Below, one piece after another: positions 49,504-62,533 of a stretch of DNA of 64,000 bases. Positions within the stretch are counted from its first letter, which is position 1. Each line of letters opens with the position of its first letter. Source of the DNA: Allomuricauda sp. M10. GTDB taxonomy: Bacteria; Bacteroidota; Bacteroidia; Flavobacteriales; Flavobacteriaceae. The notes beneath the pieces were generated by a model that did no database searches, was not told the DNA's origin, and saw nothing but the letters and a program-made list of their open reading frames with translations. The stretch spans positions 62,001 through 126,000 of the forward strand of contig NZ_JAJGBN010000006.1 in assembly GCF_020782875.1 (NCBI RefSeq). Reading direction: 5' to 3'. Made by a program: the position numbers and the translations under genes.

Positions 49504-50136
49504 ATGGAAGAAGATCTTATTGGAACATTCAGCAATTATTTTGAACCACCCCTGATCGAGGAAATCCTTCAAGTGGGAAAATTGATGGAAGTCCCCGCAG
49601 GGGAAACCATCATGGATATAGGCCAATACATCCGTAGTATGCCGTTGCTGCTTTCCGGGGCCATAAAAGTGTTGCGGGAAGATGAGGAAGGGGATGAGTT
49701 GCTGCTGTATTATTTGGAACAAGGCGAAACATGCTCGGTGACCATGGCCTGTTGCATGGGACACACCAAGAGCGAGATCAGGGCCATAACCGAAACCGAT
49801 GTTAGAATCATCATGGTCCCCGTTCAAAAGATGGAAGAATGGATGGCCAAATATCAAGGTTGGCGCAATTATGTGTTCGATAGTTACCACAACCGATTGA
49901 ACGAGTTGTTGCAGACCGTGGACAGTATCGCATTCAAGAACTTGGATCAAAGGTTGGTGGAGTATCTTAAAAAGAAAGTGGAAGTGACCAACGACAATAA
50001 GATCAGGAGTACCCACCAAGAAATTGCCTATGATCTACATACATCAAGGGTCGTGGTTTCCAGGTTATTGAAAAAGCTGGAAAAAATGAAAAAGCTCAAA
50101 TTGCATAGGAGTTACATTCATGTTCTAGATCTGTAA
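49504..50136 (+). CDS. Crp/Fnr family transcriptional regulator of the sulfide/cytochrome bd module
   Basis: Cyclic-nucleotide-binding-fold regulator, 210 aa. The beta-roll spans ~20-110, the dimer helix ~115-150 and the winged HTH ~155-205. In place of the cAMP phosphate cassette it has ETCSVTMACCMGH with Cys77, Cys83 and Cys84, which suggests a thiol or persulfide sensor rather than cAMP; no N-terminal Fe-S cysteines as in Fnr are present. The recognition helix is TSRVVVSRLLKKLE with Arg182 and Arg187 (CRP Arg180, Arg185) and Val183 where CRP has Glu181. It likely binds the GTAAC-N4-GTTAC dyads found at 50139, 51928, 53809, 56136, 56582, 58203, 60737 and 62490. No such site precedes its own gene. 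Confidence 0.9.
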   Translation: MEEDLIGTFSNYFEPPLIEEILQVGKLMEVPAGETIMDIGQYIRSMPLLLSGAIKVLREDEEGDELLLYYLEQGETCSVTMACCMGHTKSEIRAITETDVRIIMVPVQKMEEWMAKYQGWRNYVFDSYHNRLNELLQTVDSIAFKNLDQRLVEYLKKKVEVTNDNKIRSTHQEIAYDLHTSRVVVSRLLKKLEKMKKLKLHRSYIHVLDL

Positions 50137-50138
50137 TT

Positions 50139-50182
50139 GTGCCCTTTGTTACTGTGGGCTACCATTAGGCACTATATTTTTG
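50139..50182 (+). promoter_or_regulatory. Crp/Fnr-box promoter of the SulP gene
   Basis: Degenerate dyad GTGCC-CTTT-GTTAC at 50139-50152, 22 bp, then -7 TATTTTTG at 50175-50182. The right half is perfect and the spacing equals that of the better sites. Because the -7 element covers 50175-50182, translation must begin downstream at the ATG at 50198. Confidence 0.6.
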
Positions 50183-50197
50183 CGCAAAACCAATCAG

Positions 50198-51931
50198 ATG
50201 CTCATAAGGTATTTTCCTTTTTTATCATGGATCCGCAATTATGACCGTTCGTTGTTGTACGGCGATTTGATTGCAGGGATAACTGTTGGGATAATGCTCG
50301 TGCCCCAAGGAATGGCTTATGCCATGATCGCTGGTATGCCGCCCATTTATGGGTTATATGCTTCTTTGATACCACCCTTTATTTATGCTTTAACGGGCAC
50401 ATCGAGACAATTGGCAGTTGGCCCTGTGGCCATGGATTCCTTATTGGTTGCTGCAGGTGTTGGGGCATTACATTTAGCAGGCATTGAGGATTATATAGCG
50501 GCCATACTCTTTTTAACCCTGCTCATAGGGGGCGTCCAGCTTCTATTAGGAATATTGAAGATGGGATTTTTTGTCAATTTTTTGTCAAAACCCGTAATCA
50601 GTGGTTTTACTTCGGCGGCAGCCATTCTTATTGGCCTGGGGCAGCTTAAACATATATTGGGAACCGAATTCGAACAATCGAGCAAGATTCATCTACTGAT
50701 CGGAAATATCGTGGGCAGTTTGGGAGAAATCAATCCCTATACCTTGATTTTTGGCGTTTTGGCAGCGCTTGTTATAATTATACTGAATAGGGTAAGTAAA
50801 AAGATTCCCACCCCTTTGTTAATGGTGGTCTTGGGTATTTTGATCGTTTCCATATTTGGTTTGGATACATTGGGAATACGTGTTGTGGGCCAGATACCAA
50901 AGGGATTGCCGGCATTTCAACCCCCGCCCATTTTATGGGATAGGATCGGCCAATTGCTTCCCATAGCTATTACCGTGGCCCTTTTCGGGTTTATGGAGTC
51001 CATTTCAATAGCCAAAACTGTGGAAGAAAGACACCCAGAGTACGAACTCGATGCCAATCAAGAGCTTAGGGCGTTGGGTATGTCCAATATATTGGGGTCG
51101 TTTTTCCATTCTTTTTCGGTTTCAGGAAGTTTTTCCAGGACAGCTGTCAATGACCAGGCAGGAGCAAAAACAGGAATGTCCCTTATTTTCAGCGCCCTAT
51201 TGGTGGCTGGGGTCCTGCTTTTTCTAACTCCTGTGTTCCATAATTTGCCTACCGTAGTACTGGGTGCTATCATTATCGTATCAGTTTTTGGGTTGATAGA
51301 CCTCAAATATCCAATGGTACTTTGGAAAAATAGAAAGGATGAGTTTCTGCTTTTGGTGGCGACTTTCTTGATGACCTTATTCATTGGTTTGATAGAAGGT
51401 ATCCTATTGGGGGTATTGCTTTCTCTCTTGTTGCTGGTCTATCGCATTTCCAATCCCCATATTGCCATTTTGGGAAGAATTAAGGGAACCAATTATTTCA
51501 GAAATATCGACCGATTTTCGGATGAGGTAGAAATTGATCCGGATAAGCTGATCTTAAGGTTTGATGCCCAGCTGTATTTTGGTAACAAGGATTATTTCAA
51601 AAAACAATTGTACAAACAAATAGAAAAAAAAGGAATCGGATTAAAGGTCGTTGTGCTGAACGCGGAAGCAATCAATTACATAGATAGCAGTGCCACAGTC
51701 ATGTTGGAGCGCATCATATTGGACCTTCGGGAAAAAGGTATCAAATTCCTAATTGCTGGGGCCATAGGCCCTACGAGGGACATTTTGTACAGTAGCGGCC
51801 TGATCGATGTTTTAGGTGAAGAAAATCTCTTTGTCCAAACCTTTGAAGCGGTAGATGGCTGTTTCGACCAACAGGAAAGAAGTATGATTCAGAAACGGGT
51901 ATCATTACAGTCCAAGTCCAAGAGTTTGTAA
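50198..51931 (+). CDS. SulP family anion permease with STAS domain
   Basis: Inner-membrane sulfate permease-family transporter, 577 aa. Family signature LVPQGMAYAMIAGMPPIYGLYASLIPP lies around residues 31-57 (given here in overlapping pieces), followed by 10-12 TM helices and a C-terminal STAS domain (residues ~440-560; VVVLNAEAINYIDSSATVMLE). The start at 50198 is required by the promoter -7 box at 50175-50182, which overlaps an upstream TTG. Within this module it could export sulfite, thiosulfate or sulfate produced from sulfide oxidation, or import sulfur oxyanions; direction unknown. Confidence 0.92.
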   Translation: MLIRYFPFLSWIRNYDRSLLYGDLIAGITVGIMLVPQGMAYAMIAGMPPIYGLYASLIPPFIYALTGTSRQLAVGPVAMDSLLVAAGVGALHLAGIEDYIAAILFLTLLIGGVQLLLGILKMGFFVNFLSKPVISGFTSAAAILIGLGQLKHILGTEFEQSSKIHLLIGNIVGSLGEINPYTLIFGVLAALVIIILNRVSKKIPTPLLMVVLGILIVSIFGLDTLGIRVVGQIPKGLPAFQPPPILWDRIGQLLPIAITVALFGFMESISIAKTVEERHPEYELDANQELRALGMSNILGSFFHSFSVSGSFSRTAVNDQAGAKTGMSLIFSALLVAGVLLFLTPVFHNLPTVVLGAIIIVSVFGLIDLKYPMVLWKNRKDEFLLLVATFLMTLFIGLIEGILLGVLLSLLLLVYRISNPHIAILGRIKGTNYFRNIDRFSDEVEIDPDKLILRFDAQLYFGNKDYFKKQLYKQIEKKGIGLKVVVLNAEAINYIDSSATVMLERIILDLREKGIKFLIAGAIGPTRDILYSSGLIDVLGEENLFVQTFEAVDGCFDQQERSMIQKRVSLQSKSKSL

Positions 51932-51971
51932 CTTTGGTCACAGAAAGTTATGGCATACCATTTTATATTTG
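51928..51971 (+). promoter_or_regulatory. Crp/Fnr-box promoter of the CstB-like operon
   Basis: GTAAC-TTTG-GTCAC at 51928-51941 overlaps the stop codon of the SulP gene; exactly 22 bp later comes -7 TATATTTG (51964-51971), and the ATG follows 17 nt after it. A clean example of the module's site. Confidence 0.82.
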
Positions 51972-51987
51972 ATAAAAACCATATCAC

Positions 51988-53397
51988 ATGAAGATTGAAC
52001 AGATTTATACAGGATGCTTGGCCCAAGGGGCTTATTATATAGAAAGTGAAGGAGAAGCGGCTATTGTGGATCCGTTGAGGGAAGTAAAGCCCTATATTAA
52101 AAAAGCTGCTGAGGGTGGCGCGAAAATCAAATATATTTTTGAGACCCACTTCCATGCCGATTTTGTAAGCGGGCACGTTACGCTTGCCAAGGAAACCGGT
52201 GCGGCAATCATTTATGGCCCAACGGCCAAACCCTCTTTTGATGCCATTATTGCCACCGACGGACAAGAGTTCCAATTGGGTAAGTTGACTATCAAGGTAT
52301 TGCATACCCCGGGCCATACCATGGAGAGCTCTACCTTTTTGCTTAAAGATGAGAACGGAAAGGACTATGCCATCTTTAGTGGCGATACCTTGTTTCTTGG
52401 CGATGTAGGAAGACCCGATTTGGCCCAAAAAGCGGCACATATGACCCAAGAGGAATTGGCAGGTACATTGTATGAGAGCCTTCGCAATAAGATCATGCCC
52501 TTGGCCGATGATTTGATCGTTTATCCTGCACACGGTGCCGGTTCCGCTTGCGGAAAGAACATGATGAAAGAGACCGTTGATACCTTGGGCAATCAAAAGA
52601 AAATGAACTATGCCCTTCGGGCAGATATGACCAAGGACGAATTTATCGCCGAGGTTACCGAAGGCTTGTTGCCTCCGCCTCAATATTTCCCTTTGAACGT
52701 GAAAATGAACAAGGAAGGGTATGAGGATATAGATACCATTTTGAAAAGAGGTACGCACGGTTTGAGCCCGGATGCCTTTGAAGTGGCTGCCAATGAAACA
52801 GGAGCTGTGGTATTGGATGTACGCCACCAAGATGATTTTGCAAAGGGTCATGTGCCAAGATCTATCTTCATTGGTTTGGATGGAAGCTTTGCGCCTTGGG
52901 TGGGAGCCTTGATCGCCGATGTGGAACAGCCCATTCTTTTGGTGGTTCCAGAAGGTAAGGAACAGGAAACCGTAACCCGACTTTCTAGGGTTGGTTTTGA
53001 TCATACCCTAGGTTATTTAAAAGGTGGAATCGAAGCTTGGAAAGCGGCAGGAAAGGAATATGATACGGTACCCAATGTAAATGCCGAGCAATTCAAGATT
53101 ATGGTGGATAAAGGCGTTCCTGTTTTTGATGTTAGGAAGGAATCCGAATACAAGGCAGAACATGTGGTAGATGCCAACTTGACCCCCTTGGATTATTTGA
53201 ACGATCACTTGGCCGAATTCCCAAGTGAAGAAACTTTTTACATTCACTGTGCCGGGGGCTATCGCAGTATGATCGCATCTTCCATTCTTAAAAGCAGGGG
53301 AATTCATAACTTAGTGGATGTATCCGGTGGATTTGCCGAAATCAAAAAAGCAGGGGTGCCTGTAACGGATTACGTTTGTCCATCGACCTTAAAATAA
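51988..53397 (+). CDS. CstB-like persulfide dioxygenase fused to two rhodanese domains
   Basis: Cytoplasmic multidomain enzyme for sulfane-sulfur oxidation, 469 aa. The N-terminal MBL domain has THFHADFVSGH (His54, His56, Asp58, His63), the ETHE1/persulfide-dioxygenase type of site, and LHTPGHTMESS and FSGDTLFLGDVGRPDL follow. Residues ~260-355 form a rhodanese homology domain whose active loop lacks a Cys (LLVVPEGKE). The C-terminal rhodanese (~370-460) has Cys421 in YIHCAGGYRS. This MBL, pseudo-rhodanese, rhodanese order is that of staphylococcal CstB. It lies under its own Crp/Fnr-box and 8 nt upstream of a rhodanese lipoprotein. Confidence 0.9.
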   Translation: MKIEQIYTGCLAQGAYYIESEGEAAIVDPLREVKPYIKKAAEGGAKIKYIFETHFHADFVSGHVTLAKETGAAIIYGPTAKPSFDAIIATDGQEFQLGKLTIKVLHTPGHTMESSTFLLKDENGKDYAIFSGDTLFLGDVGRPDLAQKAAHMTQEELAGTLYESLRNKIMPLADDLIVYPAHGAGSACGKNMMKETVDTLGNQKKMNYALRADMTKDEFIAEVTEGLLPPPQYFPLNVKMNKEGYEDIDTILKRGTHGLSPDAFEVAANETGAVVLDVRHQDDFAKGHVPRSIFIGLDGSFAPWVGALIADVEQPILLVVPEGKEQETVTRLSRVGFDHTLGYLKGGIEAWKAAGKEYDTVPNVNAEQFKIMVDKGVPVFDVRKESEYKAEHVVDANLTPLDYLNDHLAEFPSEETFYIHCAGGYRSMIASSILKSRGIHNLVDVSGGFAEIKKAGVPVTDYVCPSTLK

Positions 53398-53405
53398 GAA
53401 AAACC

Positions 53406-53786
53406 ATGCGCCATTGGTTTAAACTAACATTGTATTCAGTGATTTTCGCCACTGTGGTTTCGTGTCAGTCCCAACAAGATGCAACCATCACCAGGGTAGA
53501 CAAGGAGACCATAAAGGCGGAAGTCATTGGAAAGGATGTGCAACTTGTGGATGTGCGCACTCCTGAAGAATACAATGCAGGGCATATTGATGACGCCATC
53601 AATTTTGACCTGAGCAATAGGGTAGCCTTTTTAAAACAGATCGAGACCATGGACAAAGAGCAACCTGTTTATGTGTATTGTATGATCGGGTCACGCAGTG
53701 CCTATGCTGCCAAAATCCTTCGCAGTAAGGGTTTTACCAAAATCTATGACTACTCCGGAGGCTACGACGACTGGAGAAAACCCTAA
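53406..53786 (+). CDS. Rhodanese-domain lipoprotein
   Basis: Exported lipoprotein (lipobox TVVSCQS) with a single rhodanese domain of about 100 aa. The active-site loop is VYVYCMIGSRSAYA with the catalytic Cys, and the strand QLVDVRTPEEYNAGHIDDAINFDL is the usual CDC25-type entry. The Met at 53406 is used because an upstream ATG overlaps the CstB-like gene and lacks the signal. It is 8 nt downstream of that gene, so it is in the same transcript. Probably a periplasmic sulfurtransferase or persulfide carrier. Confidence 0.88.
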   Translation: MRHWFKLTLYSVIFATVVSCQSQQDATITRVDKETIKAEVIGKDVQLVDVRTPEEYNAGHIDDAINFDLSNRVAFLKQIETMDKEQPVYVYCMIGSRSAYAAKILRSKGFTKIYDYSGGYDDWRKP

Positions 53787-53808
53787 TTTTTTGCAATTTC
53801 TTCCTTAT

Positions 53809-53852
53809 GTAACCAGCGTTACTGACCACGTTTGGCATTCACGGTATTTTAG
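53809..53852 (+). promoter_or_regulatory. Crp/Fnr-box promoter of the second rhodanese operon
   Basis: GTAAC-CAGC-GTTAC (53809-53822), 22 bp, then -7 TATTTTAG (53845-53852; one mismatch to TAnnTTTG). The ATG of the downstream rhodanese is 20 nt further on. Confidence 0.8.
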
Positions 53853-53871
53853 CCCTTAAATAGAATAAAGT

Positions 53872-54216
53872 ATGTCATTACTCAGCTTTTTGTTCAAGGG
53901 ACAAACACTGCCGGAACAGGTACAGATATTGGACCGTGAAGATTACAAAATGGCCATTTCCAAAGGAAAGGTACAATTGGTAGATGTTAGGACCCGGGGA
54001 GAGTTTATGGCTGGCCACATCAAAGGAGCAAGCAATATCGACTTTTTTCAGGGCTCTGCCTTTCAGTCCGCTTTTTCCAAATTGAAAAAAGATAAACCCC
54101 TATATATTTATTGCCAATCCGGGAATCGCAGTCAAAAAGCGGCAAGGATGTTGGCAGACATGGGATTCCAAGAAGTATATGACCTCCGTGGAGGATACAG
54201 GACCTGGACCTATTAA
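53872..54216 (+). CDS. Cytoplasmic rhodanese-like protein
   Basis: Single-domain rhodanese of 114 aa without signal or TM. QLVDVRTRGEFMAGHIKGASNIDFF starts the domain and IYCQSGNRSQKAA contains the catalytic Cys. It starts 50 nt after the Crp/Fnr-box and 12 nt upstream of the HMA protein gene. Together with the lipoprotein rhodanese it suggests sulfane-sulfur transfer on both sides of the membrane (inference). Confidence 0.9.
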   Translation: MSLLSFLFKGQTLPEQVQILDREDYKMAISKGKVQLVDVRTRGEFMAGHIKGASNIDFFQGSAFQSAFSKLKKDKPLYIYCQSGNRSQKAARMLADMGFQEVYDLRGGYRTWTY

Positions 54217-54227
54217 TTCAAGTTGGG

Positions 54228-54497
54228 ATGAAAACAATATTTCACGTACAGAACCTTAAATGTGGTGGATGTGCAAGAACCATTTCCAACAAACTGTCGG
54301 AAATGAACGGTATAAAAGAGGTGATTGTGGAGAAGGAACGCTCATCGGTTAGCTTTGAACATCAAAGCGCCGATGACGCTTCCTTGGTTAAAGACACCTT
54401 GAGACAATTGGGGTACCCAACCCTTGATGATGAGAACGGAATGTTCTTAAAGGCCAAATCTTTTGTAAGTTGTGCCAATGGCAAATTGGGACTATGA
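54228..54497 (+). CDS. Heavy-metal-associated (HMA) domain protein
   Basis: Small copper-chaperone-like protein, 89 aa, with ferredoxin-fold HMA domain. The metal site is Cys12-x2-Cys15 in LKCGGCARTI, with the typical EVIVEKERSSVSFEH and LRQLGYP motifs. A Cys near the end (SFVSCANGK) is unusual. It overlaps the next gene as ATGATGA. A link to copper or to sulfide-metal chemistry is inferred from neighbours. Confidence 0.9.
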   Translation: MKTIFHVQNLKCGGCARTISNKLSEMNGIKEVIVEKERSSVSFEHQSADDASLVKDTLRQLGYPTLDDENGMFLKAKSFVSCANGKLGL

Positions 54498-55132
54498 TGA
54501 AACAGGTGGGCCTTCCTTTGTTGGTGTTACTATTGGTGCTTTCCTGTAAACAGGGACCCAAGACTTCTGAAACCAACATATTGCAACCCGAGGCAAAGTC
54601 CCCAACGGAAATGGAAGTGGGTGCAACCACACAAACCCCAAAGGAAATGGGGATGAAGTTCGCCCAGGAAACCCAGAAAGTGTTGGGCAAGAACCTTATG
54701 GGAACCATTCAGAACAAAGGGGTGGAGGAGGCTGTGGTATTCTGCAATGAAAGGGCCTATCCATTGACGGATAGTATGTCCATGAATTTCAATGCGAGGA
54801 TTAAAAGGGTGTCGGACAAACCCCGTAACCCTGATAATGCTGCCAATGCATCGGAGCTGGCATATATTGAAACTTTTAAAAAGGATGTAGCCGCTGGGGT
54901 TACCCTGGAACCCATCCTAAAAGAGGTCAACGGAAAAGTTCATTTCTATTATCCCATTGTTACCAACAGTATGTGTTTGAATTGCCATGGAATTCCGGGC
55001 AAAAGCATTCAGGCCGATGTAGTTCAGCATTTGTCCCGATTATATCCCGATGACAAAGCCACTGGCTATGACGTGAATGAAGTCAGGGGTATTTGGAGCA
55101 TTGTTTTTGATGCCCCAAACGATTCCAATTAA
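54494..55132 (+). CDS. Haem-binding DUF3365 (Tll0287-like) lipoprotein
   Basis: Exported lipoprotein (lipobox LVLSCKQ) with a DUF3365/Tll0287-like PAS-type domain. A c-type haem site is visible as MCLNCHG near residue 170 of ~212, and conserved KRVSDKPRNPDNAANASEL and VTLEPILKEV motifs fit the family. It overlaps the HMA gene by 4 nt, and either of two tandem Met codons (54494, 54497) may start it. It could sense or carry electrons in response to redox or small gases (inference). Confidence 0.87.
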   Translation: MMKQVGLPLLVLLLVLSCKQGPKTSETNILQPEAKSPTEMEVGATTQTPKEMGMKFAQETQKVLGKNLMGTIQNKGVEEAVVFCNERAYPLTDSMSMNFNARIKRVSDKPRNPDNAANASELAYIETFKKDVAAGVTLEPILKEVNGKVHFYYPIVTNSMCLNCHGIPGKSIQADVVQHLSRLYPDDKATGYDVNEVRGIWSIVFDAPNDSN

Positions 55133-55139
55133 ACCTTGA

Positions 55140-56018
55140 TCACGGTTTTGAAGGTTTCTTAAAACCGTACACCAATTGCCCCCAGAATCCTTTTGGCAGT
55201 TTTTCATCCCCAGGGAAACCCAGTTCAATTTTACCACTGTCTTCCGGGATATAGTTTGTTTTGAAGATATAATCCCAAATACTCAGACTGATCCCGAAAT
55301 TTACACCGTACGAACCTTCTGGAATGGTATAGGCGTGATGATACAGGTGCATTACCGGATTGTTCAATACATATTTCAAGGGGCCATATGTCAATTTAAT
55401 GTTGGAATGATTAAAATGCCCTATGGCAATAGCGGCAAAATGAACAATATAGGCCTGCTCGGGCTCAAATCCGCCTAGGACCATCACCCCCAAAGTCTTT
55501 AAAGGTTTGTAAAGGATGTTTTCCATCCAATGATAGCGCAAATGGGCGGCAAAGCCCATTTCCTTCACACTGTGGTGCACTTTATGAAATTCCCAAAGCT
55601 TGGGGTATTTGTGCAAAAGCACATGGGTGAACCATTGTACAAAATCCAAAATGATAAAAAACACAACTAGCTGCACCCACTGTGGCCAATGCGCAATATC
55701 TACAATGGCCAAGGTTTTGGATGTGACGCCCATATCGCCGAACAAAACGCCAAGCATTTTGTAGACCCCGTTGATGACAATAGCGAAAATGAAGAAATTA
55801 AAGAACATGTAGAACCCATCCAGCCAAAAATCCTTCCGGATGATGGATTGTTCCTTTCGCCATGGGAACAAAATTTCCAACCCCCAAACCAAAAGGGAAA
55901 TGGCAATCAACCCCCAAAAATAATTGGTGTACCAAGGCACCTCAAACAAAATGGACTTCCAGGTCCAATTTAAGGTACCCATCAAACCATTTACAAAAGC
56001 GTTTATATAATCTTGCAT
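55140..56018 (-). CDS. Fatty-acid hydroxylase/sterol desaturase family membrane protein
   Basis: Integral membrane di-iron oxygenase-family protein of about 292 aa with four or five TM helices. The His motifs of the FA_hydroxylase superfamily are visible: FTHVLLHKYPKLWEFHKVHHS (His-rich box 1-2) and HLYHHAYTIP (box 3). The start at 56018 is preferred; an in-frame ATG at 56045 would also be possible. It is convergent with the DUF3365 gene (8 nt apart) and divergent from the DUF2892 gene, so its inclusion in the sulfide module is by position only. Substrate unknown. Confidence 0.88.
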   Translation of the reverse strand: MQDYINAFVNGLMGTLNWTWKSILFEVPWYTNYFWGLIAISLLVWGLEILFPWRKEQSIIRKDFWLDGFYMFFNFFIFAIVINGVYKMLGVLFGDMGVTSKTLAIVDIAHWPQWVQLVVFFIILDFVQWFTHVLLHKYPKLWEFHKVHHSVKEMGFAAHLRYHWMENILYKPLKTLGVMVLGGFEPEQAYIVHFAAIAIGHFNHSNIKLTYGPLKYVLNNPVMHLYHHAYTIPEGSYGVNFGISLSIWDYIFKTNYIPEDSGKIELGFPGDEKLPKGFWGQLVYGFKKPSKP

Positions 56019-56085
56019 ATTCTTGATCAATATGTCGTGGAACACGACCCGAGCCTTACCAGTTATTGTAAGTTTAAGCTTAAAA

Positions 56086-56099
56086 GCACTTTAAAGTGC
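56086..56099. promoter_or_regulatory. Perfect 14-bp palindrome upstream of the sterol-desaturase-family gene
   Basis: GCACTTTAAAGTGC is its own reverse complement. It lies 68 nt upstream of the minus-strand start and about 20 bp downstream (minus sense) of a -7-like TATTTTTG (complement of 56117-56124). It may be an operator or an mRNA stem. Confidence 0.4.
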
Positions 56100-56135
56100 C
56101 TAACTTAAATATACTGCAAAAATAATACAGCCTAT

Positions 56136-56179
56136 GTAACACAGGTTACTATATGGTTTGGCATGGTTCACTAATTTTG
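56136..56179 (+). promoter_or_regulatory. Crp/Fnr-box promoter of the DUF2892 gene
   Basis: GTAAC-ACAG-GTTAC (56136-56149), 22 bp, then -7 TAATTTTG (56172-56179). The box and -7 region share long identity with those at 62490-62533, including GACCCAA after the -7 box. The coding start is 87 nt downstream, leaving an unusually long leader for this set. Confidence 0.85.
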
Positions 56180-56193
56180 ACCCAATGTTCTGA

Positions 56194-56237
56194 TTACCAA
56201 AAAATGAGAAGTGAAAAATGACGTGATTTTTTGGTAA
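56194..56237 (+). promoter_or_regulatory. Leader hairpin of the DUF2892 transcript
   Basis: TTACCAAAAAA (56194-56204) is perfectly repeated in inverse orientation as TTTTTTGGTAA (56227-56237) with a 22-nt loop, inside the predicted 5' leader. It may be a structured leader or a second protein site. Confidence 0.4.
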
Positions 56238-56265
56238 CTTGTATGGGTATCATAAACTAAGCATT

Positions 56266-56472
56266 ATGAAAAAAAACATGGGCGGTGCAGACCGCGTTAT
56301 CCGAATCATCCTAGCACTGGTAGTTGGAGCATTGTACTATTTTAATGTGATAACAGGAACATTGGCATATGTGTTGCTAGCATTTGCGGCAATCTTTGTC
56401 TTAACGAGTTTTGTTAGTTTTTGTCCCTTGTACACCCTTTTTGGGATCAACACTTGCAAGGTCAAAAACTAG
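56266..56472 (+). CDS. DUF2892 (YgaP-like TM domain) small membrane protein
   Basis: 68-residue membrane protein with two TM helices, family DUF2892, which in YgaP is fused to a rhodanese domain. Motifs GGADRVIRIILALVVGAL and SFCPLYTLFGINTCKV are characteristic, the latter with two Cys. The ATG at 56266 is chosen over an upstream ATG in the leader. Presence of several rhodaneses in the same module suggests it anchors or accepts persulfide from one of them (inference). Confidence 0.9.
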   Translation: MKKNMGGADRVIRIILALVVGALYYFNVITGTLAYVLLAFAAIFVLTSFVSFCPLYTLFGINTCKVKN

Positions 56473-56490
56473 GTTTTTTGGTTGGTTGAT

Positions 56491-56527
56491 AAAAAAGAGC
56501 CGTTCTTTTTAAAGAGCGGCTTTTTTT
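56491..56527 (+). terminator. Terminator after the DUF2892 gene
   Basis: GCCGTTCTTT pairs with AAAGAGCGGC (one G-T wobble), flanked by A- and T-runs (7 T). Confidence 0.85.
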
Positions 56528-56581
56528 ATGGGTAAAAAAATGATAGATTTCAATTTATAAAACCCTCTTTTTAAGGATTAT

Positions 56582-56625
56582 GTAACTTTAGTTACATTTT
56601 TTTATGACTTTCCTCAATATTTTAC
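56582..56625 (+). promoter_or_regulatory. Crp/Fnr-box promoter of the type II sulfide:quinone oxidoreductase gene
   Basis: GTAAC-TTTA-GTTAC (56582-56595), 22 bp, then -7 TATTTTAC (56618-56625, two mismatches to TAnnTTTG). The ATG is 27 nt beyond. Confidence 0.78.
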
Positions 56626-56651
56626 GATAAAAATTAACAGAACAGACAAAA

Positions 56652-57914
56652 ATGAAATCACATTATCAAATATTGATCATTGGGGGAGGTACCGCAGGAA
56701 TCATGACGGCAGCCCAATTATTGAGGAAGAACCAAAAGCTGGATATAGCCATCATCGAGCCCTCCGAAACACATTACTATCAACCTGCTTGGACCTTGGT
56801 TGGAGCAGGAGCCTATGATTTTAAGAAGACCGCCAGGCCCATGGCCGATGTTATGCCCAGTGGCGTGGACTGGATAAAAGACAAGGCCAAAGCTTTTCAA
56901 CCTGAACAGAATACGATTACCACTGAAAGTAGTGGCGATATCACCTATGATTTTTTAGTGGTCGCTCCTGGATTGGTCATGGAACCCAGTATGATCAAGG
57001 GGCTTCCCGAGGCATTTGAAAAAGGCGTCGCTTGCAGCAATTACATCGATCCAGAATTCACTTGGGAAACCATACGCAATTTTAAAAAGGGGAATGCCCT
57101 GTTTACCCAACCTACAACCCCTATCAAATGTGGTGGTGCACCGCAAAAGATTGCCTATTTGGCTGCTGATTATTTTGGGAAGAATGGGTTAAAGAATAAA
57201 ACCAATGTGATTTTTGCCACCCCGGGATCGGTAATTTTTGGGGTAAAGGAAATAAGGGAAACCCTAATGAAGGTCATTGATCGGTATGGCATCCATTTTA
57301 AGCCGTTTTATGCTCCAAAGGAGATCGATGTTGAAAACAAGATTGTACACTTTAGCCATACTGCCCCGGAAGAGAATCGTTGTATAATAAACGAAGACAA
57401 TGATTTGGGTGAAATAATGATCGGTGATGTGGACATTCAAGTCCCATTTGATATGTTGCACTTGGCCCCTCCACAGGCGGCCCCAAAATTTGTAAGGGAC
57501 TCTGTTCTGGCCAATGCATCCGGCTGGTTGGATGTGGACCACCATTCCATGCAGCACAACAAGTTCGGGAACATTTTCGGTTTGGGTGATGTGGCGGCAC
57601 TTCCCACAGCCAAAACAGGAGCTGCGGTTAGAAAACAGGTTCCTGTTGTGGTGGACAATATCCTAAAATTGATGGAGCACAAATCTGCCGATAACAAATC
57701 CTACAACGGTTATTCCTCTTGCCCCTTAGTGACCGGTTATGGAAAAATGACCTTGGCCGAGTTTGATTATAACAACAATTTTATCCCCGACCCCAAACTA
57801 AAGCGGATGCTTGTTTTTAATAGTGCCAAGGAGCATTGGAGGCTTTGGATGTTGAAGAAATACGGCCTGCCCAACCTGTATTGGAACAAAATGCTGAAGG
57901 GTAAAAATGTTTAG
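56652..57914 (+). CDS. sqr: Sulfide:quinone oxidoreductase, type II (SQOR-like)
   Basis: Membrane-associated flavoprotein that oxidises H2S to sulfane sulfur and reduces quinone, 420 aa. GGGTAGIMTAAQLLRK (10-25) is the FAD motif. The redox cysteines typical of the SQOR type are Cys160 (PIKCGGAPQKI) and Cys357 (YSSCPLVTGYGK); HYYQPAWTLVGAG resembles the active-site entry. It would feed electrons to the quinone pool and thus to the cytochrome bd encoded downstream. It is under a Crp/Fnr-box promoter and followed by a small membrane protein gene. Confidence 0.93.
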   Translation: MKSHYQILIIGGGTAGIMTAAQLLRKNQKLDIAIIEPSETHYYQPAWTLVGAGAYDFKKTARPMADVMPSGVDWIKDKAKAFQPEQNTITTESSGDITYDFLVVAPGLVMEPSMIKGLPEAFEKGVACSNYIDPEFTWETIRNFKKGNALFTQPTTPIKCGGAPQKIAYLAADYFGKNGLKNKTNVIFATPGSVIFGVKEIRETLMKVIDRYGIHFKPFYAPKEIDVENKIVHFSHTAPEENRCIINEDNDLGEIMIGDVDIQVPFDMLHLAPPQAAPKFVRDSVLANASGWLDVDHHSMQHNKFGNIFGLGDVAALPTAKTGAAVRKQVPVVVDNILKLMEHKSADNKSYNGYSSCPLVTGYGKMTLAEFDYNNNFIPDPKLKRMLVFNSAKEHWRLWMLKKYGLPNLYWNKMLKGKNV

Positions 57915-57940
57915 CATCAAAGGATTACGGATGCATCAAC

Positions 57941-57984
57941 ATGAGAATTATCATGTTCTGTAGGCCGTATGGAACTTAAATTTG
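57941..57984 (+). promoter_or_regulatory. Weaker dyad promoter upstream of the 38-residue membrane peptide
   Basis: ATGAG-AATT-ATCAT (57941-57954) is part of a 20-bp dyad AACATGA...TCATGTT, lying exactly 22 bp before a -7 TAAATTTG (57977-57984). The TGA/TCA cores equal those of the site at 60737, but the outer G and C are missing. It could alternatively be an RNA hairpin of the SQR 3' end. Confidence 0.4.
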
Positions 57985-58019
57985 GTTCCAATTAAAACCA
58001 ATACATTGTGAAAACACTC

Positions 58020-58136
58020 ATGAATATCCCCCTAGTATCTTGGGAGAACGGCATCTGGATGATTGGCTTGTTCGCCTTGGTGGTCGTTGTTTTGGTAGTT
58101 GCGGTCTTTGCCATGATGAACAGCGGAAAAAAATAA
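58020..58136 (+). CDS. 38-residue single-pass membrane peptide between sqr and cydA
   Basis: Small protein with one strongly hydrophobic TM helix (WMIGLFALVVVVLVVAVFAMM), an N-terminal MNIPLVSWENG and a short basic end (NSGKK). A GTG at 58008, in frame, could be an alternative start. It sits just upstream of cydAB. Small TM subunits such as CydX or CydS accompany cytochrome bd in other bacteria, but a strong terminator and a new promoter stand between this gene and cydA, and no sequence similarity to CydX is evident. Coding is supported by reading frame, TM character and a candidate promoter only. Confidence 0.55.
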   Translation: MNIPLVSWENGIWMIGLFALVVVVLVVAVFAMMNSGKK

Positions 58137-58156
58137 TTGAAATTGATATGTTTACG

Positions 58157-58202
58157 GTTTTAACATGACGACCCAAATCGTCATGTTAAAACTTTGTTTT
58201 TT
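58157..58202 (+). terminator. Strong terminator before cydA
   Basis: A 15-bp perfect stem (GTTTTAACATGACGA / TCGTCATGTTAAAAC) with loop CCCAAA is followed by a T-rich tract. It isolates cydAB from upstream transcription; the Crp/Fnr box begins at the next base (58203). Confidence 0.92.
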
Positions 58203-58246
58203 GTAACATGGGTAACCTAATAAGATAATTTTCGGGGTTATTTTTG
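58203..58246 (+). promoter_or_regulatory. Crp/Fnr-box promoter of cydAB
   Basis: GTAAC-ATGG-GTAAC (58203-58216; right half has one mismatch to GTTAC), 22 bp, then a perfect -7 TATTTTTG (58239-58246), 18 nt before the cydA ATG. Confidence 0.8.
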
Positions 58247-58263
58247 ATTTCAAAATCATATCC

Positions 58264-59637
58264 ATGGAAACGGAAATACTCGCCCGTATTCAATTTGCCT
58301 TCACAGTTGCGTTTCATTACATCTACCCCCCTTTAAGTATTGGCCTAGGTCTGTTGTTGGTCATTTTTGAAAGTATCTACATCAGGACCAAAAAGGAAAT
58401 CTACCATAAACTGGCCCGATTCTGGACCAAGATTTTTGCACTTACTTTTGGTATCGGTGTGGTGACAGGTATAGTCATGGAGTTTGAGTTCGGGACCAAC
58501 TGGGCCGTGTATTCCCGGTATGTGGGCGATGTTTTTGGAAGTGCACTCGCGGCCGAAGGTATTTTTGCCTTCGCTCTCGAAAGTGGATTTTTGGGCATAT
58601 TGCTTTTCGGGTGGAACCGGGTCAAGCCTTGGGTCCATTTGGTTTCCACCATCGGAGTATTTTTAGGGTCGATGTTCTCAGCCATTTGGATTGTGGTGGC
58701 CAATAGTTGGCAACAGACCCCGGCTGGGTTTCACATTGTGGGAGAAGGGATGGAAGCCCGGGCAGAGATTACAGATTTCTGGGCCATGGTGTTCAATCCT
58801 TCCAGTGTGGATAGATTGACCCACGTTTGGCTGGGAGCCTTTTTGGCCGGAGCTTTTTTGGTCATGAGTGTCCATGCCTATTACATGGTCAAGGGCAAGT
58901 ACATTGAAATTTCAAGAAAGGCCTTTAAGATTGCGCTGATCGTAGCGACCATATTTTCATTGGGACAATTGTTCACAGGACATCAATCCGCAGATGGGGT
59001 GGCTAAAAATCAGCCTGCAAAATTGGCTGCATTGGAAGGACATTATGAGGAATCGGCCCCAGCGGATATGTACATCATGGGTTGGGTGGACCAAGAAAGC
59101 CAAGAAGTATCGGGAATCAAGATACCTGGAGGACTTTCTTTTCTATTGGACTACAATTTTGAAACCCCAGTAACCGGACTCAATGCCTTTCCCGAGGATG
59201 AACGCCCATCACAAGTGAACGCCGTATTCCAATTTTATCATATTATGGTAGCCATAGGAATGACTCTGATCTTCCTGACCTTGTTCGCCAGTTTTTTATT
59301 ATGGAGGGGCAAGCTCTTTCAAAAGAAATGGTTGCTCTGGATATTTGTATTTGCGGTATTCCTACCTCAGATAGCAAATCAGGTGGGTTGGTTTGCCGCA
59401 GAAATGGGAAGGCAGCCATGGGTGGTCTATGGTCTTTTAAGAACCGACGAAGCCTTTTCACAGGCTGTTTCTGACAATCAGATCATGTTTTCGTTGATTC
59501 TATTCTTTTTGATATACGCCTTGTTGTTCACCTTGTTCATCTATCTATTGCACAAAAAGATCAAACACGGGCCATACGAAGAAGCGGAAAGCGACGAAAC
59601 ACCTTTTGGAGGAACATTGACTCACATGATTAACTAA
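58264..59637 (+). CDS. cydA: Cytochrome bd ubiquinol oxidase subunit I
   Basis: Large catalytic subunit of the high-affinity, sulfide-tolerant quinol oxidase, with about nine TM helices. Haem and quinol residues are visible: His18 (VAFHYIYPPL), Glu in ALESGFLGILLFGW, His in HVWLGAFLAG, and GWFAAEMGRQPWVVYGLLRT of the Q-loop side. At 457 aa it is shorter than E. coli CydA (522), which points to a short Q-loop type. It is followed by cydB after 5 nt and preceded by a Crp/Fnr box and a terminator. Confidence 0.96.
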   Translation: METEILARIQFAFTVAFHYIYPPLSIGLGLLLVIFESIYIRTKKEIYHKLARFWTKIFALTFGIGVVTGIVMEFEFGTNWAVYSRYVGDVFGSALAAEGIFAFALESGFLGILLFGWNRVKPWVHLVSTIGVFLGSMFSAIWIVVANSWQQTPAGFHIVGEGMEARAEITDFWAMVFNPSSVDRLTHVWLGAFLAGAFLVMSVHAYYMVKGKYIEISRKAFKIALIVATIFSLGQLFTGHQSADGVAKNQPAKLAALEGHYEESAPADMYIMGWVDQESQEVSGIKIPGGLSFLLDYNFETPVTGLNAFPEDERPSQVNAVFQFYHIMVAIGMTLIFLTLFASFLLWRGKLFQKKWLLWIFVFAVFLPQIANQVGWFAAEMGRQPWVVYGLLRTDEAFSQAVSDNQIMFSLILFFLIYALLFTLFIYLLHKKIKHGPYEEAESDETPFGGTLTHMIN

Positions 59638-59642
59638 ACAAT

Positions 59643-60680
59643 ATGGAAACATTTTTAGGATTGGATTATCCCACATGGTGGTTTTTGGTCGTTGGCGGTT
59701 TGTTCTCAGGATATGCCATCTTGGATGGGTTCGACTTTGGGGCAGGTGCTTGGCACCTCTTTCTAAAGAAAGAACACAGCCGAAGGATTGCCTTGAATGC
59801 AGTGGGGCCTGTATGGGATGGTAACGAGGTATGGTTGGTGATTGGGGGCGGAGCCTTGTTTGCAGGTTTCCCATTGATGTACGCCACATTGTTCTCATCA
59901 CTCTATATCCCCTTTATGCTGTTTTTGCTCTTCATCATCTTTAGGGCCATTTCCATAGAATTTAGGGGGAAGGAACCCATGTTGTGGTGGAGAAGGCTTT
60001 GGGATATCTGTTACAGCATTTCCAGTATCATGCTGGCCTTTTTGCTTGGGGTTGTACTCGGAAATGTGTTGCAAGGCATCCCGATAGGGGAGGATTATCA
60101 ATATAAAGGCGGTGTCCTTTTTGAATTTTTGAATCCATACGCCTTGATGACCGGATTTACCACCTTATCACTTTTTATGGCACATGGAGCTATTTTTCTA
60201 CTGTTGAAGACGGAAGGCAGATTATTTGCCAAACTGACGAGACTATTAAAAAGGGGAATGATCTTTTTTATGGTGAGTTTTTCCATTACCACCCTATATA
60301 CGTTGATCTACATTCCCCACCTTTCGGACGATTTTAAGAGTAATCCATCGCTTTTTGTGATCCCACTCTTGACCTTTTTGAGTATAGCCAATGTGCCCCG
60401 TTTGGCGGAGAAAAGAAAATACAAGTGGGCTTTTTTGTTTTCATCATTGACCATTGCCTTTTTGTTGGTTTTGGTGGCGGTTGAATTGTATCCCGTGCTC
60501 CTTCGTTCTACCATAGACCCTAAGTTTCATATCGACATATACAATGCCGCTTCCTCTACCAAATCGTTACAGATTATGTTGACAATTGTGGCCATCGGTA
60601 CCCCTTTGGTACTGTTCTATACCATATTTGTGTACAAAACATTCTGGGGCAAGGTCAAGTTGGACGAGACCAGTTATTAG
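59643..60680 (+). CDS. cydB: Cytochrome bd ubiquinol oxidase subunit II
   Basis: Second subunit of cytochrome bd, 345 aa with about nine TM helices. Family features include DYPTWWFLVVGGLFSGYAILDGFDFGAG (start of helix 1, residues ~8-35), GPVWDGNEVWLV near 55-66 and FRAISIEFRGKEP near 101-113. It lies 5 nt after cydA. Length and motifs fit CydB. No cydX-like gene follows directly; 118 nt later another Crp/Fnr-controlled gene starts. Confidence 0.96.
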   Translation: METFLGLDYPTWWFLVVGGLFSGYAILDGFDFGAGAWHLFLKKEHSRRIALNAVGPVWDGNEVWLVIGGGALFAGFPLMYATLFSSLYIPFMLFLLFIIFRAISIEFRGKEPMLWWRRLWDICYSISSIMLAFLLGVVLGNVLQGIPIGEDYQYKGGVLFEFLNPYALMTGFTTLSLFMAHGAIFLLLKTEGRLFAKLTRLLKRGMIFFMVSFSITTLYTLIYIPHLSDDFKSNPSLFVIPLLTFLSIANVPRLAEKRKYKWAFLFSSLTIAFLLVLVAVELYPVLLRSTIDPKFHIDIYNAASSTKSLQIMLTIVAIGTPLVLFYTIFVYKTFWGKVKLDETSY

Positions 60681-60736
60681 TTGTTTATATAGGTTTATAC
60701 AATTGAAAGGCAACTCATTAGGTACCTTTTTTCTAT

Positions 60737-60780
60737 GTGACCTAAGTCACTTTATATCTGAAACCCTAAAGTTAATTTTG
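60737..60780 (+). promoter_or_regulatory. Crp/Fnr-box promoter of the type III sulfide:quinone oxidoreductase gene
   Basis: GTGAC-CTAA-GTCAC (60737-60750) is a perfect dyad with the E. coli CRP-like core TGTGA-N6-TCAC, 22 bp, then -7 TAATTTTG (60773-60780), 18 nt before the ATG. Confidence 0.82.
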
Positions 60781-60797
60781 GTGAAAATGATATAAAA

Positions 60798-62255
60798 ATG
60801 GCAAAAATTGTTGTTCTGGGAGCCGGAATAGCGGGTCATGTGGCCGCTTCGCATCTCAGAAGAAAGCTCCCAAAAGAGCATGAAGTGGTGGTGGTTTCAC
60901 CCAATAGTAACTACCAGTGGATCCCATCCAATATATGGGTTGGGATCGGTAGGATGAAACCCAGGGATCTCATATTTCCATTGGCCCCCCTGTACGCCAA
61001 AAAACATATCGATTATAAACAGGCCAAAGCCATCAGTTTTTATCCCGAAGGAGATAATGATGAGCAGAAACCCTACGTCTTGGCAGAATATGTGACAGGG
61101 GACGAGAAGGGAAAGCAAGAGAAGGTCACCTATGACTATCTGATCAATGCAACGGGTCCAAAACTCAATTTTGAAGGGACCGAGGGACTTTCACCAGGTA
61201 AGAACAAGGCACATTCCGTTTGCACCTATACCCACGCCCAAGAAGCTTGGGTGGCCCTGGAAGAGGTCATCAAACAAATGAAGCAGGGCAAAAAGGTCAA
61301 GATTCTGATCGGTACAGGTCATGCCAAGGCCACCTGCCAAGGTGCCGCTTTTGAATACATTTTGAATGTGGAGCAAGAGCTTAGAAGACACAAGGTAAGG
61401 GATATGGCCGAAATCACCTGGATTTCCAACGAATACCAACTAGGGGATTTTGGGATGGACGGAATGCTGTTGAGCTACGGAAGCAATATCATGAAATCCA
61501 ACGAAATGGTGGAGATGGTCTTTGAAGACCGGGGAATCCATTGGATTTTGGGAGCCGGGGTCAACAAAGTGGAAGATGGGTTGGCTCATTATGAAACCCT
61601 TGATGGCGAATACAAGCAGGAAAGCTATGATTTCGCCATGTTGATACCCTCATTCTCGGGTCATGGATTTAAGGCCTATGACAAGAATGGGGGTGATATT
61701 ACGGAAAAACTCTTTAAAGGGTTTATGATCGTTGATGCCGACTACACGCCCAAACCTTACGAGGAATGGACGGTTCAGGACTGGCCGGAAACCTATCAAA
61801 ACCCATCGTACGCCAATATTTTTGCACCGGGGATAGCCTTTGCACCTCCCCATGGCATTTCAAAACCGAGAAAGAGCAAAAACGGAACGGACATCACCCC
61901 AGCTCCACCACGTACGGGAATGCCTTCGGGCATTACGGCAAAATTAGTGGCCGATAATATTATTGAGATGATCAAAAACCCGAACCACGAATTGCATCAT
62001 AAGGGCTCAATGGGTAACATGGGAGCTGCCTGTATCGCTTCGGCCGGGTTTGGAATGACCAAGGGTAGTGGCATCAGCATCACAACTTATCCCATTGTGC
62101 CCGATTTCAAAAAATATCCGGATACCCATGGTAGAAAACTGGGTAAAACCTTTGGTTCTATCGGTTTGGCCGGACACTGGCTAAAATTGGCATTGCACTA
62201 TGCCTTCATCTACAAAGCAAAAATGAAACCTTTTTGGTGGTTAATTCCTGAATAG
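60798..62255 (+). CDS. Sulfide:quinone oxidoreductase, type III-like
   Basis: FAD-dependent SQR-family protein of 485 aa distinct from the type II enzyme. FAD motif VVLGAGIAGHVAASHLRRK (4-22). IPSNIWVGIGRMKPRDL and the long insert with TGHAKATCQGAAFEYI are those of the archaeal/bacterial type III group; Cys residues in ATCQGA and GAACIASAG are redox candidates. The C-terminal HWLKLALHYAFIYKAKMKPFW is amphipathic/hydrophobic and may attach it to the membrane. It is followed 7 nt later by a small basic peptide gene. Confidence 0.88.
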   Translation: MAKIVVLGAGIAGHVAASHLRRKLPKEHEVVVVSPNSNYQWIPSNIWVGIGRMKPRDLIFPLAPLYAKKHIDYKQAKAISFYPEGDNDEQKPYVLAEYVTGDEKGKQEKVTYDYLINATGPKLNFEGTEGLSPGKNKAHSVCTYTHAQEAWVALEEVIKQMKQGKKVKILIGTGHAKATCQGAAFEYILNVEQELRRHKVRDMAEITWISNEYQLGDFGMDGMLLSYGSNIMKSNEMVEMVFEDRGIHWILGAGVNKVEDGLAHYETLDGEYKQESYDFAMLIPSFSGHGFKAYDKNGGDITEKLFKGFMIVDADYTPKPYEEWTVQDWPETYQNPSYANIFAPGIAFAPPHGISKPRKSKNGTDITPAPPRTGMPSGITAKLVADNIIEMIKNPNHELHHKGSMGNMGAACIASAGFGMTKGSGISITTYPIVPDFKKYPDTHGRKLGKTFGSIGLAGHWLKLALHYAFIYKAKMKPFWWLIPE

Positions 62256-62262
62256 AAAAATC

Positions 62263-62397
62263 ATGACACGACGCATATCAAAATACAAGCGATTTATGAT
62301 GATGAACCCCATCGTCCAGTTTTTTAAATTCATTTTTTTGAGCTTAAAAGTGTTGGTGATCGTAGCCGGGGGACACGGGGGTACCCGAAAGGCTTAA
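62263..62397 (+). CDS. 44-residue basic peptide after the type III SQR gene
   Basis: Short ORF with ATG 7 nt after the SQR stop; product has a very basic start (MTRRISKYKRFMM), a hydrophobic segment (IVQFFKFIFLSLKVLVIVAGG) and a Gly/His/Arg-rich end (GHGGTRKA). Tight spacing and composition suggest a real, perhaps membrane-associated partner of the SQR. No family recognised; a purely random ORF cannot be excluded. Confidence 0.5.
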   Translation: MTRRISKYKRFMMMNPIVQFFKFIFLSLKVLVIVAGGHGGTRKA

Positions 62398-62489
62398 ACC
62401 CTGACATTCATCATTGTACAAAACCTCAATACGGATTTCCTTTGTGGGGACTTCTTCGTATTGGGGTTTTTTCATTCCCAAATTTCTTA

Positions 62490-62533
62490 GTAACACAGGT
62501 TACTGTGTGTGTCTTTTTACGCATCTAATTTTG
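62490..62533 (+). promoter_or_regulatory. Crp/Fnr-box promoter of the TolC-adaptor operon
   Basis: GTAAC-ACAG-GTTAC (62490-62503), 22 bp, then -7 TAATTTTG (62526-62533), 20 nt before the ATG. The half-sites and spacer ACAG are identical to the site at 56136. Confidence 0.85.

Follow-up and report, generated by a model that had tools for sequence, protein, structure and literature searches.

Flavobacteria are abundant marine heterotrophs, and the genus Allomuricauda carries sulfide-oxidation genes. To our knowledge, the sulfide regulators of other phyla all belong to protein families other than Crp/Fnr. NtcA promoters carry GTAN8TAC at about -41.5, where NtcA is a class II activator, and have 22 nt to the -10 element in one cited case (available text of PMC3898017). 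In Flavobacterium, the -7 boxes lie at -12 to -5 (available text of PMC9723704). The present locus lies in a 64,000-nucleotide stretch of Allomuricauda sp. M10, hereafter the window, which comprises bases 62001-126000 of contig C21 in a genome of 3.93 Mb and 24 contigs. Here a gene for a Crp/Fnr-family protein (49504-50136, the 49504 protein) is followed by a gene cluster with repeated promoters (Table 1). Each promoter has a dyad related to GTAAC-N4-GTTAC, a spacer of 22 base pairs (bp), and a -7 element of the type TAnnTTTG. The cluster is very probably a regulon for the oxidation and detoxification of sulfide and sulfane sulfur, run by the 49504 protein, which would act as a class II activator at GTAAC-N4-GTTAC centred at -41.5. 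In a protein search, the closest named relatives of this protein are from Allomuricauda/Flagellimonas species.

Re-reading of the DNA places all eight dyads of an earlier sequence-only reading at their coordinates, with a spacer of exactly 22 bp in 8/8 sites. The -7 elements, of which six had been called perfect, comprise six perfect ones, one with one mismatch, and one with two (in site order 0, 0, 1, 0, 2, 0, 0, 0). Mismatches to GTAAC-N4-GTTAC in the same order are 2 (50139), 1 (51928), 0, 0, 0, 1 (58203), 2 (60737), and 0, and the left arm of the SulP promoter departs from the consensus. The off-consensus -7 of promoter 5, ahead of the first sulfide:quinone oxidoreductase (SQR) gene, recurs in many same-genus loci. 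The eight promoters proposed earlier are borne out, and their count is short by one, as the minus-strand reading of the 56136 dyad (promoter 4') had been missed.

With up to two mismatches in the dyad, 22 bp, and up to one mismatch in the -7, the window has 8 matches; 100 first-order Markov sequences average 0.28 and never exceed 2. These 8 leave out 56582, which has two -7 mismatches, and take in the divergent reading of 56136. Every other spacer from 14 to 31 bp gives 0 or 1 match in the window. When two -7 mismatches are allowed, there are 11 matches against a Markov mean of 1.97 and maximum of 6. None of the 59 other permutations of the arm GTAAC exceeds 1 match at up to one mismatch in dyad and -7 each, compared with 6 for the real arm. 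With two dyad mismatches allowed, the top permuted arm is ATGAC, which has bases in common with the real arm, and reaches 5 against 8. The plain dyad GTRACN4GTYAC is not enriched genome-wide, with 17 matches against 63 for a reversed-pattern control, yet 6 of the 17 fall within the 12.4 kb of the cluster (binomial P about 1e-11). The dyad is therefore notable for its clustering and not for its abundance.

The sequence-only reading had staked its case on enrichment in related genomes, and this enrichment is present. In 71 loci (L046-L116) from named records, collected by protein search, there are 262 sites with up to one mismatch each in dyad and -7; permuted arms give 0.73 on average and 12 at most. 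A perfect -7 at spacer 22 accompanies 94/366 exact dyads, 69/190 with one mismatch, and 43/1138 with two, and the next best spacer has 15 cases; these counts cover both strands, and an exact palindrome is therefore counted twice. The 262 sites include many same-genus near-copies. Their information sits in the dyad and the -7, and the spacer carries no more than 0.6 bits over its initial three positions and no more than 0.3 bits beyond them.

Gene order is mostly preserved within the genus. On a loose criterion (up to two mismatches each in dyad and -7, up to 400 bp ahead of the gene), the 71 loci have a site ahead of SulP in 45/51 cases, the CstB-like gene in 59/66, the second rhodanese in 42/57, YgaP-like in 44/48, the first SQR in 19/22, CydA in 17/18, TolC in 25/25, and the second SQR in 7/7. 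Sites are also found in Maribacter, Robertkochia, Aequorivita, Zhouia, Neptunitalea, Sphingobacterium, and a metagenome-assembled genome labelled Saprospiraceae, and loci L104 and L115 have none. In the distant genera, they precede TauE-like, YeeE-like, and peroxiredoxin genes (named by eye, not by profile), CstB-like enzymes, and others.

A whole-genome matrix scan, which the earlier reading had proposed, was run with a sequence-only model of 56 columns built from 54 sites of other genomes, and it scored 150 of 1518 first-look candidates in the own genome. Nine of the 12 best matches fall in the cluster, and these are its nine sites (ranks 1-5, 7, 8, 11, and 12). The regulon had been called compact; it is concentrated in the cluster and is not confined to it. 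The outside match C18:430208 has a type III SQR gene (657 bits against a cut-off of 525) on one side and, on the other, a gene whose YHS match is sub-threshold. Its dyad is exact, and the -7 that faces the SQR gene is poor, with 2 mismatches (L008, G000:C18:428712-431725, dyad 1501-1514). The match C19:286005, ahead of a thioredoxin-like gene and an ArsP-type permease, has GTGAC-N4-GTCAC, 22 bp, and a perfect -7 (L009, G000:C19:284508-287521, dyad 1501-1514). Further matches are C19:389639, between YceI and pyruvate-phosphate-dikinase genes, C1:459905, ahead of a ferritin-like gene, and C1:699211, ahead of an open reading frame (ORF) with no Pfam match. At E <= 0.01, the model finds matches in 34/35 same-genus genomes and 7/23 others. 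The genome G003 has neither a regulator match nor a model match, and its SulP-CstB locus has no site or regulator within the 20 kb covered; since its SulP is only 52% identical, this may be another locus type and not a loss of the regulator.

The identity of the reading protein was approached through residue 183 in the recognition helix. Around homologues across the phylum, 100 loci were hand-chosen from homologue lists and about 7.5-14.5 kb was scanned in each. Residue 183 is V in 54 and E in 46 of these homologues, and R182 and R187 are unchanged in every one of the 100 best-scoring homologues. An enumeration of palindromic arms with no motif named beforehand puts GTAAC on top in the V loci, with 31 matches in 25 loci and 2 for the next best arm. 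In the E loci, GTGAC and GTGAT come out on top with 5 matches each, in 5 and 4 loci. GTAA-N6-TTAC sites occur in 25/54 V loci versus 1/46 E loci, and GTGA-N6-TCAC sites in 15/46 E loci versus 1/54 V loci. The spacer peak is 22 bp for both types, and by eye the genes that follow E-type sites are of the same kinds.

Once the window itself and 22 loci from the named set of 71 are added to the 100, there are 123 rows, of which 62 have a site preference: 46 V rows with GTAA, 15 E rows with GTGA, and one E row with GTAA (L121). Among 210 columns, residue 183 is the best predictor of site type (61/62 rows). A Fisher test on the V and E locus counts ignores kinship, and a tree-pair test was an attempted correction; over 200 pairings, site type followed the residue in 1.9 pairs and opposed it in 0.0. 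In alignments to solved structures, the residue 183 equivalent is E in CRP, where it contacts DNA at this helix position, and V in NtcA. The direction, V to GTAA and E to GTGA, is as expected from these two proteins. Taken over the phylum, the comparison indicates that residue 183 decides which DNA word the regulator reads. The sequence-only reading had named the adjacent Crp/Fnr protein as the regulator, and both the covariation of residue 183 with site base -5 and the absence of its helix from the other Crp/Fnr proteins found by a family search of the genome support the view that it works these sites.

The Flavobacterium -7 placement, combined with the 22-bp spacer, puts the dyad at -48 to -35 with its centre at -41.5, which agrees with the class II position of about -42 proposed earlier. 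The fixed spacer in 8/8 sites and this centre, carried over from Flavobacterium, match the class II geometry of CRP-type proteins. Because the dyad lies at -41.5, as in NtcA promoters, the protein is read as a class II activator. The regulator dimer would bind GTAAC-N4-GTTAC and recruit RNA polymerase with the Bacteroidota housekeeping sigma factor to the -7 element 22 bp downstream. It would thereby largely stand in for the -33 element of Bacteroidota promoters. TG follows the dyad directly, at -34/-33, in 107/262 sites and is perhaps a remnant of that element. R182 and R187 are the proposed invariant contacts, and residue 183 would set site base -5, with V giving A:T and E giving G:C. The palindrome at 56136 would serve two divergent promoters. 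The predicted outputs are sulfide oxidation by the SQRs, persulfide and rhodanese enzymes, efflux, anion export through SulP (and, in other genera, through genes that by eye resemble TauE and YeeE), and a bd oxidase, a type resistant to sulfide, which is expected to keep this property here.

The probable inducer is a reactive sulfur species, which would act on cysteines of the effector-pocket region. The only cysteines of the regulator are 77, 83, and 84, which in alignment to solved structures fall in the region that binds cyclic AMP (cAMP) in CRP. Cys77 is invariant in 72/72 close and 100/100 wider homologues, and among the 72 close homologues 71 retain Cys83 and all 72 retain Cys84, both of which vary in the wider set. 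The target genes and the invariant Cys77 suggest that the regulator is a reactive-sulfur sensor. The most serious alternative is that it senses oxygen, nitric oxide (NO), or a nucleotide, and that the regulon is a respiratory one to which the sulfur genes contribute only a part. The presence of cydAB among the targets speaks for this, as do HcpR and PgRsp, heme-binding Crp/Fnr proteins of another Bacteroidota species, tied to NO or redox state in the available text of PMC12750200 and PMC6955866. On the other side, the regulator has no N-terminal Fe-S cysteine cluster, and sulfur genes, several of them named by eye, recur as targets over many genera. This alternative is rather unlikely, and keeps an appreciable share of the probability.

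PDB entry 3dv8, a Crp/Fnr protein of Eubacterium rectale, is the regulator's best match among solved structures in both fold and sequence. In its alignment, one cysteine matches Cys77 and another matches a member of the 83/84 pair; the motif may therefore extend beyond Bacteroidota.

The protein might also be mainly a repressor that covers the -33 region and is released by reactive sulfur, like the sulfide repressors of other phyla. The dyad does abut the -33 position, and the sulfide regulator BigR is a repressor (available text of PMC5823870). The uniform -41.5 position and the rigid 22-bp spacing are instead the signature of class II activators (available text of PMC3898017), and the occurrence of TG after the dyad in just 107 sites suggests promoters that need help. 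Repression as the main role is improbable. The 49504 protein could likewise be a bystander, with the dyads bound by another Crp/Fnr protein of the genome. Two other Crp-type proteins score above the Pfam cut-off, and some loci with a homologue lack sites. The helices of these two proteins are of another type (TESAIR and TESLIR), the family search of the genome found no further Crp/Fnr protein with the recognition helix of the 49504 protein, and it is the adjacent protein whose residue 183 covaries with the site; a bystander role is highly improbable. Coincidence, or descent from one duplicated promoter, draws on the near-identity of some promoters between same-genus species and is scarcely credible, as it is already contradicted by the mutually unlike spacers of the window's eight sites, and the low spacer information over the 262 sites and the permuted-arm and Markov controls, which do not reproduce the pattern, also speak against it.

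Several points weigh against an activator of sulfur genes worked by the adjacent protein. The sulfur signal is deduced from the target genes and Cys77, and the AlphaFold structure model is poor at the cysteine region, with a predicted local distance difference test score (pLDDT) below 50 at residues 80-82. The case for activation comes from the position of the dyad. The second SQR site is GTGAC-N4-GTCAC under a V183 regulator, in the same-genus loci where the site is seen, and locus L121 combines E183 with a GTAAC site. Column 121, which lies away from the DNA-binding helix, gives the right site type in 60/62 rows with 7 residue states, a result that kinship alone could produce. For the rows with sites, the tree counts only 4 changes between V and E, and 2 independent pairs lie on well-supported branches; with just these two pairs, a sign test cannot reach significance. 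At the stringency used and within the roughly 7.5-14.5 kb scanned, 29/54 V loci and 31/46 E loci are without a site of their own type, and sites are present in 2/14 loci of a V subgroup whose residues 77/83/84 are C-G-G. The genome G030, 71% complete, has 7 model matches yet no regulator match.

With these points taken into account, the reading of the 49504 protein as class II activator of a sulfur regulon is kept at the strength given above. A wider proposal is put forward tentatively, as a possibility somewhat short of an even chance. It is that of a phylum-wide Crp/Fnr family whose cyclic-nucleotide pocket has turned into a cysteine-based reactive-sulfur sensor, with the invariant Cys77 and often the pair Cys83-Cys84, and which is a master activator of sulfide oxidation in Bacteroidota. 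Its specificity would have changed between GTAA-N6-TTAC and GTGA-N6-TCAC on more than one occasion, through V183 and E183, with the 22-bp geometry and the kinds of targets kept, and at some loci one dimer would serve two divergent class II promoters.

The two-way dyad is present in 45/71 loci. On its plus side, the gene is YgaP-like in 40, an SQR in 1, and unassigned in 4; on its minus side, 25 loci have a fatty-acid hydroxylase and 20 have an ORF that carries the motif CGGNGRS. The one CGGNGRS ORF tested, from L064, matches Pfam Oxidored_molyb, with SorA sulfite dehydrogenases as its best match, under the model cut-off. The divergent gene in these 20 of 45 loci is thus a putative sulfite-dehydrogenase-like molybdoenzyme.

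Table 1. Features of the cluster in the window. Rank is the place in the own-genome scan with a sequence model built solely from sites of other genomes; SQR_III is a type III SQR model, and the name CstB-like is a presumed one.
Feature	Coordinates	Strand	Description	Rank
Promoter 1 (SulP)	50139-50182	+	GTGCC-N4-GTTAC, 22 bp, TATTTTTG	12
Promoter 2 (CstB-like)	51928-51971	+	GTAAC-N4-GTCAC, 22 bp, TATATTTG	2
Promoter 3 (rhodanese operon)	53809-53852	+	GTAAC-N4-GTTAC, 22 bp, TATTTTAG	8
Promoter 4 (YgaP-like transmembrane / DUF2892 gene)	56136-56179	+	GTAAC-N4-GTTAC, 22 bp, TAATTTTG	3
Promoter 4' (divergent reading of the 56136 dyad, towards the fatty-acid-hydroxylase gene)	56106-56149	-	22 bp, TATATTTA (56106-56113, one mismatch)	11
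Promoter 5 (first SQR)	56582-56625	+	GTAAC-N4-GTTAC, 22 bp, TATTTTAC	7
Promoter 6 (cydAB)	58203-58246	+	GTAAC-N4-GTAAC, 22 bp, TATTTTTG	4
Promoter 7 (second SQR-like gene)	60737-60780	+	GTGAC-N4-GTCAC, 22 bp, TAATTTTG	5
Promoter 8 (TolC-family gene)	62490-62533	+	GTAAC-N4-GTTAC, 22 bp, TAATTTTG	1
Crp/Fnr-family regulator, 210 residues	49504-50136	+	Pfam cNMP_binding and HTH_Crp_2; helix S181-R-V-V-V-S-R187; Cys 77, 83, 84	
SulP-family anion permease	50198-51931	+	Pfam Sulfate_transp and STAS; sulP subfamily model above cut-off	
CstB-like protein, metallo-beta-lactamase fold and two rhodanese domains	51988-53397	+	Pfam Lactamase_B and Rhodanese (2 stretches)	
Rhodanese protein, downstream of CstB-like gene	53406-53786	+	Pfam Rhodanese	
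Likely operon: rhodanese, HMA-domain protein, Tll0287-like protein	53872-55132	+	Pfam; operon predicted from spacing	
Fatty-acid-hydroxylase family protein, sole opposite-strand gene of cluster	55140-56018	-	Pfam FA_hydroxylase	
YgaP-like transmembrane (DUF2892) protein	56266-56472	+	Pfam YgaP-like_TM	
SQR-like flavoprotein (first SQR)	56652-57914	+	Best NCBIfam type III SQR, 228 bits, under the 525-bit cut-off	
cydAB, cytochrome bd oxidase	58264-60680	+	Pfam Cyt_bd_oxida_I; cydB above cut-off	
Second SQR-like flavoprotein	60798-62255	+	Pfam Pyr_redox_2; SQR_III 59.6 bits, under cut-off	
TolC-family outer-membrane efflux protein	62553-63857	+	Pfam OEP	

A weaker ninth candidate of the sequence-only reading, at 57941-57984 (+), is conserved with its 22-bp spacing and is set aside as a member of the regulon, as its dyad [AC]TGA-N6-TCAT is a different motif. 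The dyad is followed after 22 bp by TAAATTTG (TACATTTG in L072). The element precedes a small membrane ORF at 58010 and is kept in 10/10 loci, namely the window and nine same-genus relatives chosen for having that post-SQR stretch. It probably serves another Crp/Fnr protein.

Exact dyads with 22 bp and a degenerate -7 (2 mismatches) are found ahead of a putative lipoprotein gene, which is DUF2202 in L051 (L051:19099, L057:19182, L059:19310, and L062:19323). Sites also lie directly ahead of the regulator's own gene in Neptunitalea (L108:9953 (+) and L109:9953 (+)) and, by eye and of E type, at L228:4321 (+) and L232:5215 (-). They may represent lineage-specific autoregulation.

No regulator of sulfide-oxidation genes in Bacteroidota was found among the papers listed from the literature searched, which omits most subscription papers. 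Within this literature, the regulon seems not to have been described before, and the same holds for the switch between V and E across the phylum and for the likely sulfur input. The promoters are built in a known way. If the regulon is real, it supplies a named regulator together with a defined DNA word and a set of promoters open to testing. The comparison of V and E loci is a natural experiment on the rewiring of a regulon by one recognition residue, and the two-way dyad lends itself well to the question of whether one dimer can serve two polymerases.

Compared with described systems, the regulator belongs to the Crp/Fnr superfamily, since PF00027 and PF13545 score above their cut-offs and the best listed solved-structure matches are Crp/Fnr proteins. 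It falls outside CRP, NtcA, and FNR by their models: the CRP model gives 58.5 bits (cut-off 266), the NtcA model 45.4 bits (cut-off 244.95), and the FNR model 19 bits (cut-off 228). FNR has an N-terminal cysteine cluster for 4Fe-4S, and the regulator only has cysteines 77, 83, and 84. HcpR and PgRsp of Porphyromonas gingivalis resemble it as Bacteroidota Crp/Fnr proteins with redox-linked roles, and differ in binding heme and in their targets (available text of PMC12750200 and PMC6955866); they are set beside it by description. The systems SqrR/BigR/YgaV, CstR, and FisR have comparable target enzymes, namely SQR, persulfide dioxygenase, and rhodanese. In contrast, they come from other protein families, none of them Crp/Fnr, and are mostly repressors. 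The class II promoters of E. coli CRP share the CRP fold of their regulator, and the CRP consensus resembles the GTGA-N6-TCAC used by E183 homologues. NtcA takes second place when solved structures are searched by sequence, and again when they are searched by fold. The 14-bp dyad fits GTAN8TAC, with the same -41.5 centre and 22 nt to the -7 or -10 element, and the helix R-V-x-V-x-R corresponds to TRVTVTR of NtcA. In contrast to the cyanobacterial NtcA system, the present regulon is from Bacteroidota, uses the -7 element TAnnTTTG, and has sulfur targets.

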